In this document: positions 13,703-54,414 of the stretch, one piece after another
How positions within the stretch are numbered: position 1 is the stretch's first letter
How the letters are laid out: each line of letters opens with the position of its first letter
NCBI GenBank assembly: GCA_034620365.1
Contig: JAQGEQ010000192.1
Coordinates: 124,001-188,000 of the forward strand
DNA: 64,000 nt
DNA from: Pegea sp. RAD2-039
Lineage: Eukaryota > Chordata > Thaliacea > Salpida > Salpidae
Reading direction: 5' to 3'
Translations under genes and position numbers: made by a program
The notes under the pieces: generated by a model
Told to the model about the DNA's origin: nothing
Seen by the model: the letters and a program-made list of their open reading frames with translations, nothing else
Database searches by the model: none

Positions 13703-14960
13703 TCTCCCTGAAATCTTTCAAAGCTTGAAGTTTTATTGTACTTTTCTGGCTCATGAAGAAAATGGGTCAGAATAAAAATAACTCAAAACTTTTTTTAATT
13801 TTTAGCAATCTTTTTTTAAACCAACTTTTATCAGATATTTTAATATTCAACTTTTAAATAAAATTTTAATTTTTACAATTACTACTTCTATGAAAGCATC
13901 GAAAACAGTATATTTGAAAGTGCTAGGAAATTACAGTCTCTCTAATTACAGGTTACAGTGAGAAAATCTACTGATTCTAATAAACTTTTTTTTTAAATAT
14001 AATTAATTGTTAGTCTGTTAAAGGCTTGGTACCCACAACCATATTTACATAACGTCACAACAAGAAAACTTATTTTATTGTGTTCAAACCATTGTCCTCA
14101 CTTCAACTAGCACTTCAATTATCTTGAAGCTAAGCAACCAATGTCTTTATATTCTGCTTTACGAGGCAATCTCTTAATTACTTTAATGTGAAAGTTGTCT
14201 ATTTTTATTCAGTGCTTTTAGTAAGAGAATAGTATGAAATAATCAAATACTTTGTCAGTATAATTTTTAGGGCTTTATTATGAGATGAAGTTAGATTTAT
14301 TTAGAATTGTTTATATCTACCAACTAATAATTTATTACTTTTAATCTTAAACTGATACAATTTTGTTAACTAATTCAGGTATAAAAAGAAATATAAAGAT
14401 TGTTTTTTCTTAATCTGTTTTATATAATTAGAAAAATCTTATTTTTAATTTTTTTAAACAAATTTTTGGAATTGAAAATGTTTAGAAATTGTTTCCATCT
14501 ATTTTGAAATGTTGTAAATAGCTACAAAGCATAATTTGAGGAGTTTTTGTTAGCTGAAGTAGCCTTCAACAAAATCTTTTGTACTTTTCATTCTATTGTT
14601 TACTTTTATAAAGAACAATTTTCTCTTTTAAGGCCTGAATGCAAACCAGAACAGTGATAAATAGCAAAGAATTTTTAAAAGCATATATATATAAATTAAG
14701 AATAATAAAATAATAATTATGTAGAAAGCAAACTAGCTAGAGATTGAAAAAGCTAAATGTTTTTTACTTGTTTAAACATTTTTAAATTGCTAAAGATAAA
14801 GGTTTAGATTTTAAAAAAGCTCTAAGACTATTTGCAAAAAAGGTTTATTCGATTTTTTGATTTCTAAATAAAAACAACTTTCAGTTTATAAGTTTATTAA
14901 AAAGTAACTTTAACTGATTTTTTAGATAAAATATTCGAAAAAATCTTCTTATAAATCAAG
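13703..14960. other. 3' UTR and intergenic sequence
   Basis: AATAAA at 13771-13776 probably ends the zinc-finger mRNA. The remaining sequence is AT-rich with no recognised gene. Just before 14961 a GATTTTTTAG acceptor-like site precedes the next ATG by about 36 bases. Confidence 0.4.
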
Positions 14961-15506
14961 ATGAGTTTCAATTACACAAATTTCTTAAACAAACAGAATG
15001 AAGTTTATTTATCAAAATATACAAACGATCCAATCCAGCTTCAGAAGACTTTAAAACCTGTTGCTGGGTACAGTGGATTCAAACCTACATACAGAGGGAG
15101 CACCCAACAACTCCGAGTCATCCGATCTTTACTTCGATGTCTTGATAAAGAAGAACTTCAAGCAAAAAACACTCGAGAACAAAATTCAGTTCCAAGTACA
15201 TCTTATAGCTGTGGATCAAAATCCACTAAAATTTCTTCCACATCTGAATCACCAGAATCTCGCACGTCTTCTTCCATCTCTCATAGATCTCTGACTCCAG
15301 AGAACTTTTCTGATCCTCCAAGAGGTAGTAGTAGAACTCTCTACGGACAGAGTTTTGGTTTTAATTGGTCTAATGAAAAGCAAACAGACTCAAATCATGA
15401 TCGAGTCAAAGAGGCTGAAAGAGAAAAGAATCTGAATTCGAATCACGGAATTATCTATCGAAAACATGGCTGCATCATTCCCAAATATCAGGGTCCATGT
15501 TCCTAA
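14961..15506 (+). CDS. small protein with GYxGF/PKYxG motifs, possible ciliary microtubule inner protein
   Basis: An intronless frame of 181 residues. It opens with MSFNYTNFLNKQNEVY and contains PVAGYSGFKPTYRGS at about residues 33-47. It ends with GIIYRKHGCIIPKYQGPCS. Short motifs of the form GYxGFxP and HGxIxPxYxG occur in several small ciliary/sperm microtubule inner proteins (FAM166/CIMIP, TEX37 and related families), and the length fits. The middle (residues 75-150) is Ser/Thr-rich and probably disordered. There is no signal peptide or membrane segment. It reads like a genuine protein rather than chance sequence, but the family link rests on two short motifs and is only a hypothesis. An acceptor-like TTTTTTAG lies about 36 bases upstream of the ATG. 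Confidence 0.6.
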   Translation: MSFNYTNFLNKQNEVYLSKYTNDPIQLQKTLKPVAGYSGFKPTYRGSTQQLRVIRSLLRCLDKEELQAKNTREQNSVPSTSYSCGSKSTKISSTSESPESRTSSSISHRSLTPENFSDPPRGSSRTLYGQSFGFNWSNEKQTDSNHDRVKEAEREKNLNSNHGIIYRKHGCIIPKYQGPCS

Positions 15507-16228: not shown

Positions 16229-16529
16229 AAATATGCTGATAGATAAATATTCTGATAGATAAATATTCTGATAGATAAATATTATGATAGATAAATATTC
16301 TGATAGATAGATAGATATGCTGATAGATAAATATTCTGATAGATAAATATTCTGATAGATAGATATTCTGATAGATAAATATTCTGATATATAAATATTC
16401 TGATAGATAGATATTCTGATAGATAGATATTCTGATATATAAATATTCTGATATATAAATATTCTGATAGATAAATATTCTGATAGATAGATATTCTGAT
16501 AGATAGATATTCTGATAGATAAATATTCT

Positions 16530-16608
<79 letters not shown>

Positions 16609-16657
16609 TCTGATAGATATTCTGATAGATATTCTGATAGACAAATATTCTGATATG
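16229..16657. repeat. GATA-type satellite with a pure (GATA)n core
   Basis: Tandem copies of a roughly 12-16 base unit built from ATTCTGATAGATAAAT and shorter GATA-bearing variants fill about 430 bases. A pure GATA run of about 79 bases sits at 16530-16608. Both long open frames on the minus strand here (repeating IYLS/EYLSI units) are products of the repeat and are not genes. Confidence 0.97.
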
Positions 16658-40536: not shown

Positions 40537-43500
40537 TTACCGTAAAAGTATCTCGATGGCCGCATTGATGTCACCATTAGAAGCGTTCAGCGCGCGAAGA
40601 TTAGCTTCACGATCAACGAATCCCATATTAGAAAGTTCAACGAGTTGGGGACTGAATCGAGTTTCTGGGGAGTTCCCCATTAATGTCTCCATCATCCGTT
40701 GGATGTTAGAATCAACAGAAGGTGAAGTTGAGGTGGTTGTAGATGATGTAACAGTCGTGGTACTCGCTGTTGATATAGTTGTAGGAGCATTGGGTCTAGG
40801 TCTTTGTAATCCCATCCTAAAAGACATTAAGTTTGAAAAAATCCTAAAAAAAGAGATGAGAACCCTGTAAAAAGTCCTGGAGCTTCTTGTTCTAGAGTAA
40901 TCATTCCTCTTTCGACTTGCATCAGAGCCTCTCTTACTCGAGGATTACTCATCGCACGGAAGACTTCAGGTCGATTCGAGAGTTGTTGCATCATCTGCGG
41001 CATCATTTCTTGCATGTTTTGGTTCGACAGAAGTGGGTTTTGAGCGAGCTATCATCAGATGAAGATGTGAGAAAGAGAAGCAAGTGAAGATATGTCTTAC
41101 CTGTTCCATTATCTGTGGATTTGAAGTCATACTCTGCATCATGTCTTGAACGTAGGGACTACTCATCATGTTCTGCATCATTTCGGGATTAGCTTGAGCT
41201 TGATTCATCAATTGTTGGATTGCTGGGGTATTGAACATACCTAAAAAGTTTGTTACAAGTCAATCAAATCAACATCACCACAAACTCACTTGTGATTGAA
41301 GCTTGAAACGGATTCTCTTTACTACCCGAAGTTGACTTTGACTTTGTGGTGCTGGAATCAGTAGCAGCAGTTGTAGAAGTGTTTCTACCTCCTCCACTAG
41401 CCCAAGGATTTGGCAACGGGTTAGTATTCTCAGTATTTTGTGGTTCTTTCAAATAAATATCAGATTTGAATCAACTGCAGCTGTTGCTGTAGCAACAACT
41501 TACCACTTGATGCGTTCGAATCCGTAGCAAGAGCTGCAAACGGATTTCGACCAAACTGTTCTTGTGCAGCATTCATCATCGGCTCCTGATATTCAGTATA
41601 CATCCTTTGCAACGCGTTGTAACCACCAGGAATACTTTCAAGATTACTAAGAGCTCTACAAGAAATAAGATGTTACCAAGCAACCATCACATAATGTTAC
41701 CAACCATCACATGGTGTTACCAAGCAACCATCACAAGGTGTTACCAACCAACCATCACATGGTGTTACCAACCAACCATCACAAGATGTTACCAACAAAC
41801 CATCACAAGATGTTACCAAGCAACCATCACAAGATGTTACCAAGCAACCATCACATGGTGTTACCAAGCAACCATCACAAGGTGTTACCAAGCAACCATC
41901 AAAAGGTGTTACCAAGCAACCATCACATGGTGTTACCAAGCAACCATCACATGGTGTTACCAAGCAACTATCACAAGATGTTACCAAGCAACCATCACAA
42001 GATGTTACCAAGCAACCATCACAAGATGTTACCAAGCAACCATCATAAGATGTTACCAAGCAACCATCACATGGTGTTACCAAGCAACCATCAAAAGGTG
42101 TTACCAAGCAACCATCACAAGGTGTTACCAACCAACCATCACATGGTGTTACCAACCAACCATCACATGATGTTACCAAGCAACCATCACAAAGTGTTAC
42201 CAAGCAATCATCACATGGTGTTACCAAGCAACCATCGCCTCACCTATCCTGATTTCTCATCAATTCCTGAAGCATTGCCGGGTTTCTGACCATTTCAAGC
42301 GTCTGACGAAGAACTTGCGGGTTGTTAAGCATGTGACTAACTTCAGGGTTCCGCTGAAGACGAAGAACAACTTGTTGAAGTGGTTAAAATAGAGTTTTAT
42401 ATAAAAAGAGAAGTTTGTTTTTATCTCGTATTTCTGTACCTCCATCAGTTGCTGCATCTGAGGATTCTCAGTGATCATACTTCGGAGTGTGTCCGGATTC
42501 GACAACATGTTCTGCACTAAAGGAGTCTCTAACATATATTCCATCGCCTAGATGAAGATTTAAACATTTAGAAATCATTCAATTATCAATCTGAAAGTAT
42601 TTAGATGAAAAATTACTTGGGGGTTATTGAATAACTCTTGCTGTAGTTGTTCATGCATTGTTGAGAAATCAGGAAGACCTCTTCCAAAACCTATTCGGAT
42701 GAAAGAGCTTTTATTAGCCAAGAGATCTTTAAACTTCAGAATATTTTGGAAAGAGTAATGGACAGCTTTGATGCTGACAAACAGAAAACAAAAGACAGTG
42801 TAAAAGAGTTGTTTGCGGAGTAGAGAGCGCCGTTCGAAGCGATCTTCTATTTGCTTGTATCGCGGTTTTATGCATCTTTAGAACAAAGACAAGGACGACT
42901 GATGCTACCTTTTGACAGCTTTTCATATCCTTCTGTGAGCAAGCAATCTCAGCATTTTGTATATTAGCTTCCACGTTTGGTTTCTTTGTCATCATCACAA
43001 TTGCATCCTTGCTTTTTGTGCAATGTATTGAGACTTCGGTGTTTTGCGAAATGGCTTTGGTGAATTCTTCTCTTGTTAGTTCACAACTTAGATGGATTGG
43101 TAAACTTTCTGTTCTAACCAGGGCAGTGACGGTGTTTTGTTGGGACAACTGCTCAGTAGCTTGGACCATTGAGTTTTTAAGAAGCCAAAACTTTTTTACA
43201 ATTCTGCTAGTTTTATGTAAATTGCCACGTTTTTTGGGCTTGGTTCATGGTAGGTGTTTAAATGAATGCAGTGCTTCCGTTTTATCAAAGGTATTGATGT
43301 TTTCTTGGAACTAATCTCTGCTGTTATGAGTTCTCTTTCCAACAGCTTCTAGTGTATCATACAAATTTACCTTTATTTCAGACCAAGTCAGTGATTATTT
43401 TTAGTAGAAAATATTATATATTTGTAAATTTAATTAATAAAAATCTTGATACTAGAACCTGGAGTAGCTGCTGAAGATTGTGAAGTTGGGGTTTGAGCAT

Positions 43501-44246
43501 TTGTGGTAGGTGACTTTGTTGTTGACTTGTCAGAAGATGAAGCTGGACTTTTGGCAGCACTTACAGTTTTGACAACAACATGAACTGTATGTCCATCATG
43601 AATTGAATGTTGTTTCACAGTATCAGTGTCTTTGAGTATCTTACCAGAAAAAATCAGTACAATTCTTTCTGGTGGGGCTTTGAATACATCAGCAGATTGT
43701 GCCCGTAACTAAAACATCAAATTATATGATAGCATGTGAGAATCATCAAATATAAATTACTCAATAAATAGTTTGTTAAATTTAAAATAAATAAGAATCA
43801 ATTCAAGTTTAAATTGATTTATTTATTATTATTAATTCAAAATTTAGAATGTCTATAATATTATAGATGAAGTTAAAATAAAGTTTTAAAAGAATTTATT
43901 ATAATATAAATATCTATATCAGTTTATTTAAAAATATAAATAGGATTATTTTTCAGCTCATTCAACTTTATAATTAAAAATCTAAACTTTTAGGCAAAAT
44001 AAAAAAGTTTTAATCTTTTAATAAAAATTAAATAGATGACTATAACCAAACTTCATGAACATAATCATGTTAATTAGGTTGATTATCATTTAGGATATCA
44101 ATAAAAGGTTATAAATAAACATAGTAGGAAATATAATATATAAAAACAATAAAAACCTCTTTGATAGTAATTTCTGGTTTCACTTTAAAGACATGCTTTA
44201 GTTTAGGTGTTTTTAAAGTAACATTTATTTCACTATTTTCAGCCAT
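40537..44246 (-). CDS. UBQLN: ubiquilin, ten exons, 514 aa
   Basis: A shuttle factor that delivers ubiquitinated or misfolded proteins to the proteasome. Exons: 44246-44157, 43708-43459, 42690-42617, 42547-42440, 42353-42244, 41655-41504, 41445-41290, 41240-41101, 41048-40864, 40816-40537; all phases agree. The N-terminal UBL covers residues 7-80 ([20 protein letters not shown], then [12 protein letters not shown], and [11 protein letters not shown]). Four STI1-type segments rich in Met/Gln follow (LLETP/NPQ repeats such as [16 protein letters not shown] and [19 protein letters not shown]). The C-terminal UBA contains [19 protein letters not shown] and [10 protein letters not shown] 24-bp minisatellite lies in intron 5 and an unexplained insert in intron 2. 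TATGTTTTAG ends 36 bases before the ATG. The C-terminal region before the UBA is Thr/Ser-rich. Confidence 0.95.
41673..42240 (+). repeat. 24-bp minisatellite (24 units) in ubiquilin intron 5
   Basis: Units start at GTTACC every 24 bases from 41716 to 42220; the first two are at 41673 and 41695. The core is GTTACCAAGCAACCATCAC with a short variable end (ATGGT, AAGGT or AAGAT). Because 24 is a multiple of three and the unit has no stop, all six frames stay nearly open here, which gives false long ORFs on both strands. The array lies a few bases inside the intron from the exon 5 donor at 42243 and ends about 18 bases from the exon 6 acceptor at 41656. It therefore makes up nearly all of the intron. 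Confidence 0.98.
42700..43440 (-). other. unexplained coding-like insert in ubiquilin intron 2
   Basis: Intron 2 is much larger and less AT-rich than its neighbours. On the minus strand it contains [18 protein letters not shown] (near 43350-43300) in one frame and, after frame changes, [48 protein letters not shown] and [16 protein letters not shown]. This looks like a degraded coding sequence on the ubiquilin strand, perhaps a processed pseudogene or part of a mobile element. No family is recognised. Confidence 0.4.
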
Positions 44247-52808: not shown

Positions 52809-54414
52809 ATGATCAACTTAACAGGTTAGTTTAATTTACATTATTTGTACTTTAACTAAATCTGTGGGTCACAAAGTAATTTGCAAGATTTTAAAAAGAC
52901 CATTTTAGTTATGAGAATTATAAATTTTTAATTTAAAACTTTTCCAAATTGAAATTTTTCTTAAACTTCAAAAATATTTTTCCAAATTAAATAATCTTTC
53001 ACGGAAATGACGTCAGAAATCTTAATGAGTCTTCTTATATTTACAGAGAACTGTTTAACAACCGCTACTGACGTCATAAACACTACAGCGCCATCTAGCG
53101 TTATAAGTTATTCATCAAATGTATTGATAAGCGTCGTCATAGTGATCTTATTCTTTATCAGTACTATTGGTAACGTGTTGACAGTAGCAACGATCAGCTC
53201 AACAACTCAACTTCAAACTATCTCTAATTACTTCATCTGTAGTCTTTGTGTCTCTGATCTTTGCTCAGCCCTTCTTTGTTCACCTCTTTGGTTGTATCGA
53301 CGGACTTGGGGCTTTGCTGACTGGAAATGGGGCGAAGTTTTATGTGAGTCCTTTTTTTTCAGTATTTTAATCACTCTGAAACTCATTTTATTAATTTTTT
53401 TATCCTTTTTTTTTCAGGTAAATTTTATTGGGTTTCTGACTTTACGACGAACTACGTAACTGCGTTACACATCGCGTCTTTCGCAGCGTTTCGATATGCT
53501 GCAGTTCGAAAGCCTTTTAAAGTTTGGGATATTTCTAAAAGGAATATTTTGATCTACATTCTGATCTTATGGTTCTTCTCGACCGCTGTGAGTCTTCCAT
53601 TGATTATTTTCATGGGAGTAAGCAAGAACAAACAAAATGGTCAGTTTTGTTGCGTCACTGGGCCATTTTAGTAAAAAGTAACATTTCGTCTAAATACTAT
53701 TATGGATATTTTTCGCGAAAAATATTAAAAATTTGTGAAATAAAACTGAAAAAGGACATTTTATCCACAGTTGGAACACACGTTGGTGATTCTTGGCCGT
53801 CTTGTTCGATTCTACAAGAAAAAATAGAAGATTATCATAGCTACACAATCATCGTTTATCCGACTTTATTCATCATTCCACTAATCATCATCATCCTTTT
53901 CTCCTTACTCCTTTCACATCGATTAATTCAACAACAGAGGTACAAAAATCTCTCAATTGTTCCTCATTAATCGATCCCTTTAATTTTTAGATCTTTCTTT
54001 CGAATCAACCAATCACAGAACACCATCAAGACAATTTCTAACCAATTAAAAATGCACCAATACAACTGTTACCATGGTGATAACCAAAACGATAAACCAA
54101 ATCAATTTACTTTAGCTTCAAAAATGAAAAATGAAAGAAGCAGTCAACGACAACGGAAGACATTTCTTCAATTGATCTTAGTTGTCTTCTCGTTTATGAT
54201 TGGCTACATTCCAACTTCAGTTTATCTTATCTGGACCACTTCGACAGCTGAGTCCCCATCAATTGATTATTGGTTTGGAGTCACTTCTTATCTCTGTCTG
54301 CGTCTTAGTGAGTGTCTGAACCCTCTTATGTATAATCTTGGATCTAATAATCTTAGAAGAGGAACAAAGAATCTTTTGATGAGAGCTTATAAGAAATTTT
54401 ATTTAAAGAAATAA
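52809..54414 (+). CDS. rhodopsin-family (class A) orphan GPCR, 375 aa
   Basis: Exons 52809-52824, 53047-53343, 53418-53639, 53771-53939 and 53991-54414 join in phase. Residues 1-30 contain N-glycosylation sites (NLT, NTT). TM1 has the conserved Asn (STIGNVLTVA). TM2 has CVSDLCSALL (Asp of the L-x-x-x-D position). ECL1 has the conserved Trp (RTWGFADW). TM3 begins with the disulfide Cys at the exon 2/3 junction (CKFYWVSDF). The TM3 end reads ASFAAFRYAAVRKPF, so the Asp/Glu of D/E-R-Y is Phe. ECL2 has SWPSCSI. TM6 reads VVFSFMIGYIPTSVYLIW with Pro but Gly-Tyr-Ile before it instead of Cys-Trp-x-Pro. TM7 is SECLNPLMYNLGSNNLR (NPxxY intact). The ligand is unknown. The donor of exon 3 could lie a few bases away, but ECL2 fits best as given. 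Confidence 0.85.

Follow-up and report, generated by a model that had tools for sequence, protein, structure and literature searches.

An X-box-like minisatellite in a ubiquilin intron of Pegea sp. RAD2-039, within a genome rich in the same palindromic word

Introduction

Tandem arrays of a palindromic or near-palindromic 24-base unit are known from C. elegans, where 75% of the CeRep25B family is intronic, with a possible link to splicing; this single family is clustered on chromosomes III and II (PMC4039745, excerpt). In cyanobacteria, HIP1 and other short palindromes occur far more often than expected, also in coding DNA, and are tied to DNA methyltransferases (PMC4390886, excerpt). HIP1 propagates via nucleotide substitutions, according to the title of a 1997 reference in the same article (PMC4390886). 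Minisatellites make up 2.4% of the Trichoplax genome, in which the pentanucleotide ACAGT is the notable motif (PMC2871265, excerpt). The X-boxes of RFX transcription factors that were tested in PMC2375033 are located 5' of the start codons of ciliary genes. The excerpt of that article also states for flies that an X-box in front of a gene was not sufficient to predict RFX-dependent expression.

The window analyzed here is a stretch of 64,000 nucleotides of Pegea sp. RAD2-039 (assembly GCA_034620365.1, contig JAQGEQ010000192.1, positions 124,001 to 188,000). It contains a 24-bp tandem array with X-box-like motifs in an intron of a ubiquilin gene. Compared with CeRep25B as described in the excerpt of PMC4039745, the arrays of this genome differ in period and spacer but have a 13-bp core in common, and single exonic and intronic copies of the core occur as well. 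The CeRep25B motifs given there, AGCAGAC and GGTCTGC, were by eye absent from the consensus unit. The cyanobacterial palindromes are bacterial and methyltransferase associated in the available part of PMC4390886, whereas the words found here are longer and occur in an animal genome. The abundance of minisatellites was similar to that in Trichoplax, at 2.6% of the 168 kb sampled (a non-random sample that includes the focal array), but no triple repeat of ACAGT, the motif highlighted in the excerpt of PMC2871265, was present in the sampled stretches. The likeness to RFX X-boxes is that 17 array units fit the consensus RTNRCC N1-3 RGYAAC (PMC2375033, excerpt). Unlike the upstream X-boxes tested in that work, those of the array stand in tandem in an intron of a housekeeping gene, and the motif is also present in exon-like open reading frames (ORFs) across the genome.

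Results

The ubiquilin gene was recognized from Pfam matches to the ubiquitin family (43430-43708), UBQLN1 (42263-42547) and UBA (40540-40944). Its splice sites were read by eye from the sequence. The features of the gene and of the array are as follows.

40540..43708, minus strand: ubiquilin gene, the part looked at, with UBL, UBQLN1 and UBA domains
42244..42353, minus strand: ubiquilin exon 5' (sense) of the array intron, inside the full-length UBQLN1 match of the spliced piece
41656..42243, minus strand: array-bearing intron of 588 nt, with donor GTGAGGCGATGG, the array and a short tail ending in TTATTTCTTGTAG
41667..42238, no strand assigned: minisatellite of 24 units, consensus AAGGTGTTACCAAGCAACCATCAC (plus strand), from Tandem Repeats Finder (TRF) and splitting into units
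41504..41655, minus strand: ubiquilin exon 3' of the array intron, which continues the same frame when spliced
41446..41503, minus strand: following ubiquilin intron of 58 nt, which contains a related inverted repeat, GTTGCTACAGCAAC

Removal of five introns between 42547 and 41101 gave a single open frame of 222 codons that spans the array intron; without splicing, the ubiquilin frame reaches a stop just within this intron. In the spliced piece, the Pfam UBQLN1 match covered all 70 positions of the domain and stopped just short of the array junction. No Pfam match was obtained for the ORF of the downstream exon (41504..41655) taken alone. The PDB matches of the spliced piece were mitochondrial termination factors with weak, scattered stretches only and were discarded.

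The array starts directly after the donor, in the sense direction, and ends directly before the acceptor tail. The first-pass annotation had described an array at 41673..42240 that fills a ubiquilin intron; the placement holds, and the intron (41656-42243) is slightly wider than the range given. Reduced to one unit, it would measure about 40 nt. Since the five other mapped ubiquilin introns are only 49 to 86 nt long (49, 52, 58, 69 and 86 nt), the array intron probably grew by tandem duplication, as judged from sequence. The stretch from the UBL exon to the exon at about 42617-42690 lies outside the mapped introns and is longer, at roughly 0.75 kb by eye; a further long intron may therefore be present in the gene, whose introns are not all short.

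TRF reported a period of 24, 23.9 copies and 91% matches at 41667-42236. When the array was split at GTTACC, 22 measured units were 24 bp long and unit 2 (41691-41710) was 20 bp long; the last unit was taken as 24 bp. The head-to-tail arrangement, the high identity and a unit length within roughly 7 to 100 bp are those of a minisatellite. The units belong to 14 types in the order ABCDEFAACGHCIAAJAKHDELMN, and a 71-nt stretch of the array recurs 384 bp away, a pattern expected from block duplication. Another minisatellite of the window (16 bp, 26.8 copies, 16229-16655) overlaps a GATA microsatellite. No Rfam match was found in the 64-kb window.

The exact X-box consensus GTNRCCN{0,3}RGYAAC was present in 17 of the 24 units, each time as GTTACCAAGCAAC (GTTACC-A-AGCAAC). 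This reproduces the first-pass count exactly, and all 17 bear out its description of a perfect consensus match (GTNRCC N0-3 RGYAAC). These units are the only consensus matches in the window on either strand; in 100 dinucleotide shuffles of the window, matches with a spacer of 1 had a mean of 0.03 and a maximum of 1. Stem letters are lost in 6 of the 24 units, namely, four with AACC, one with AACA and the 20-bp unit. In the 23 units that remain when the 20-bp unit is omitted, 7 of 299 cells of the 13-bp core were variable, compared to 24 of 253 spacer cells (Fisher P = 0.0003), but this test exaggerates the evidence because array units copy one another and the cells are not independent. By column, 3 of 13 core positions and 6 of the 11 spacer positions were variable. 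The lower variability of the core may be regarded as the main result at the sequence level that favors a role of RFX; selection on the core would give this pattern as well.

The genome searched comprised 105.7 Mb in 387 contigs; the G+C content around the window is 28%. No COX1 match was found in the whole assembly, from which the mitochondrial genome seems to be omitted. The word family GTTRCCNAGCAAC occurred 393 times in the 105.7 Mb, compared to 5 times for the reversed control. For the exact word GTTGCCTAGCAAC, 150 genome-wide occurrences were counted versus 0 for the control, and 898 versus 33 when up to one mismatch was allowed. The related pattern GTTGCCN{0,3}RGCAAC gave 503 versus 10 genome-wide, with palindromic matches tallied on both strands. 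Among the 100 of these 503 matches listed, the spacer was 1 in 61, 2 in 21, 3 in 16 and 0 in 2, and 42 were GTTGCCTAGCAAC. The 20-letter form of the unit, with up to two mismatches allowed, was found outside the array in just two places, each with two mismatches.

Other palindromes were iterated as well. The palindrome ATGACGTCAT occurred 11,048 times in the genome, and the reversed palindrome of the same letters 121 times. In 78 kb of loci, a set picked for an X-box or RFX domain and thus not random, the top overrepresented 8-mer was TGACGTCA, with an excess of 92-fold over second-order expectation. In 84 kb including the window, the excess of TGACGTCA was 13-fold, a value that rests on 4 sites. 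In the window it lies at 53008, 53069, 56021 and 60371; other examples are L042:5453-5678, L062:1020 and L075:347. It is present in introns and in open frames, such as the tandem repeat of L042. A third iterated palindrome, TTGTCATGACAA, was counted 133 versus 7 times genome-wide (e.g., in L013, L026 and L031). As in the HIP type of palindrome, these words lie far above chance and occur in both coding and noncoding DNA. As TGACGTCA is also the CRE target of bZIP factors, a regulatory reading of the iterated words is conceivable, but the copies in exons make it less probable as a general account.

The 30-base flanks beyond the 13 bp were compared for the first 22 loci listed (21 on contig C1 and one on C3) and were unrelated except in one duplicated pair, indicating that the dispersed copies are words and not insertions of a transposon family. 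Three dispersed copies are located in exon-like ORFs with protein matches. The copy in INTS2 (Pfam INTS2) encodes LLGN where the solved subunit in 7cun has LLGT, and the one in carnitine octanoyltransferase (Pfam E = 2e-152) encodes VARQ; both local alignments are gap-free. The third, in L019, lies inside an ORF bearing a MIF4G domain (Pfam). Of the two near-matches of the 20-letter unit form, the one on C23 follows closely after the conserved GKPT(S/A)K segment encoded by a prolyl endopeptidase exon and lies in what by eye is an intron of about 51 nt; the one on C80 is inside a stretch open over 476 residues. By eye, the copies in L022, L023, L024, L026, L030, L032 and L041 appear intronic, and those in L027, L029 and L042 appear exonic. 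The exonic copies fit a word that spreads by point change, without proving it. In a loose screen for short introns, 9 of 21 word loci scored, compared to 34% of 365 random positions; with a strict score, the values were 3 of 21 and 3.3%, respectively. The data are thus only suggestive of a preference of the word for short introns.

A doublet pattern of the word gave 115 matches genome-wide versus 0 for the control. Ten X-box arrays were read, namely, the focal array, those in L062 and L069 and seven more, so that the genome has at least this number. One of the 10 has just 2.8 copies. The TRF period is 24 bp for the focal array and 21, 21, 22, 20, 24, 20, 20, 34 and 15 bp for the other nine, and the spacers differ. 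Of the 393 GTTRCCNAGCAAC hits, 102 are inside or border the 10 arrays, which leaves at most 291 dispersed copies. The largest array read, in L075 (757-2103, contig C21), has 61 units of 22 bp; an ORF with a match to a P-type ATPase is nearby, and a 16-bp minisatellite lies alongside.

Three arrays lie in open frames: those of L062 and L077 read as GYQAT-type repeats, and that of L069 reads as VARQ heptads. L062:1483-1674 and L077:716-1113 are minisatellites on GGTTACCAAGCAACC with differing periods, and both read GYQAT. L062 is presumably Sec31-like and L077 presumably cortactin-like; the L062 protein had neither a PDB nor a Pfam match. The 21-bp word array at L069:1516-1724 reads VARQ(R/Q)DD-like heptads that are coiled-coil-like.

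Under a rough null of random capture, 0.4 X-box arrays are expected, or 2 if the local density is fivefold, compared to nine seen with at least three copies. The baseline of this null is 10 arrays hand-counted in 147 kb, a small and non-random sample without the focal array and without the seven arrays of L041 and L042, two loci that had been chosen by hits. This seed-based estimate replaced a first null, in which the array share of X-box loci was set against the minisatellite share of bases and which was wrong because an array is one seed but many bases. The nine arrays versus 0.4 to 2 expected indicate either that tandem duplication readily affects the quasi-palindrome or that such arrays are favored. 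The excess over random capture could thus reflect selection in place of a duplication bias.

Discussion

The array is probably a neutral minisatellite, formed in a once-short intron by amplification of a palindrome that is iterated throughout the genome, and not a product of selection for RFX. The ancestral ubiquilin intron would have been short, with one copy of the X-box-like palindromic word GTTRCCNAGCAAC, and repeated tandem and block duplication would have expanded this word into the array. The quasi-palindromic nature of the word may favor tandem duplication. Flanked by a donor and an acceptor that are both intact, the array would be tolerated and presumably neutral. Its resemblance to an RFX element would be inherited from the iterated word, in which the genome is rich, and would not have been built by selection for RFX binding at ubiquilin. 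The first-pass suggestion of a chance motif spread by repeat expansion is supported as to the expansion but not as to a single chance occurrence, since the word is iterated genome-wide.

If the array were an RFX cis-element, it would act as a clustered enhancer or an RFX sink, with ubiquilin or a ciliary gene nearby as the target. Binding to the array is possible on sequence grounds and is made plausible by an encoded RFX1-like DNA-binding domain (62 residues, gap-free against human RFX1 in 1dp7); a second RFX-type domain is also encoded (RFX_DNA_binding over the cut-off at two genome places). The consensus fit of 17 of 24 units and the less variable core are consistent with such a role, and the spacer of 1 in 61 of the 100 GTTGCCN{0,3}RGCAAC matches listed fits RTNRCC N1-3 RGYAAC (PMC2375033, excerpt). 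These points make binding, as supposed in the first-pass RFX reading, plausible and even selection conceivable, but RFX control is not expected at the exonic and intronic copies. Beyond the arrays read, the word has up to 291 copies, some of which are in exon-like ORFs and in introns of various unrelated genes; other palindromes show a comparable excess. The ORF at 14955-15503, at 14.96 kb, which had been proposed as a possible ciliary gene, has no Pfam match and is about 26 kb from the array. The enhancer or sink reading is therefore weak, with little in its favor over expansion, and we consider it unlikely.

The array might instead function in RNA, with the quasi-palindromes folding the 588-nt intron and thereby bringing donor and acceptor together or modulating ubiquilin splicing. 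The predicted fold had -198.7 kcal/mol, compared to a mean of -166.5 for 100 dinucleotide shuffles (z = -5.0), none of which was as good. CeRep25B, 24-base palindromic and 75% intronic, is enriched near multiple splicing decisions (PMC4039745, excerpt). Given this precedent and the self-complementary intron RNA, splicing is a sensible alternative among the functional readings. However, stable folding is trivially expected when a partly self-complementary unit is repeated in tandem; four single units gave z values of 0.22 to -2.57, and stem letters are missing in 6 of the 24 units. We regard this function as improbable. That the word generally serves as a splicing hairpin in short introns was rejected, as three word-bearing short introns folded little better than shuffles (z of -0.72 to -0.86). 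It is very unlikely that the repeated donor-like sequence serves as a set of recursive or alternative splice donors. The 24 copies on the transcribed strand, noted by the first-pass annotation as GGTAAC, were all recovered as GGTAACA, two of the six mapped ubiquilin donors (GTAATT and GTACAG) likewise have no G at +5, and one candidate intron elsewhere (L032) begins with GTAACT. A G at +5 is absent from GGTAACA but present in four of the six mapped donors, including the GTGAGG of the array intron. The core that the 10 arrays have in common would also be expected if a mobile or dispersed repeat family, ancestral to all X-box arrays, had inserted here. This is highly improbable: array periods and spacers differ, the dispersed copies compared showed no relationship beyond the 13 bp apart from one pair, and the 20-letter unit form occurs elsewhere only twice, with two mismatches each.

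Apart from the probable origin of the array as a neutral minisatellite, the presence of iterated palindromes in an animal genome is a more surprising result than the array itself. We suggest tentatively that a sequence-specific process may have propagated TGACGTCA, GTTGCCTAGCAAC and TTGTCATGACAA by point change in exons and introns and that these words may also have seeded minisatellites. Candidates for such a process would be, for example, biased repair or conversion under the guidance of a protein that binds or modifies DNA. Among the matches listed from the open PMC literature, there was no report of an X-box minisatellite or of these iterated palindromes in animals, and an exact-word search of the same literature returned nothing relevant by title.

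The locus carries a warning that a perfect transcription factor consensus, even when repeated 17 times, can stem from a genome-wide word and minisatellites and not from regulation. It also provides a lead, namely, a compact animal genome in which palindromes are about 20- to 90-fold over matched controls in exon-like ORFs and introns. If the spread by point change is true, these words would be an animal counterpart of the cyanobacterial HIPs, and the ubiquilin array would be one visible outgrowth. To our knowledge, the question of what spreads and keeps iterated palindromes has so far been posed for cyanobacteria; a genome such as this one would allow it to be asked for iterated words in eukaryotes.
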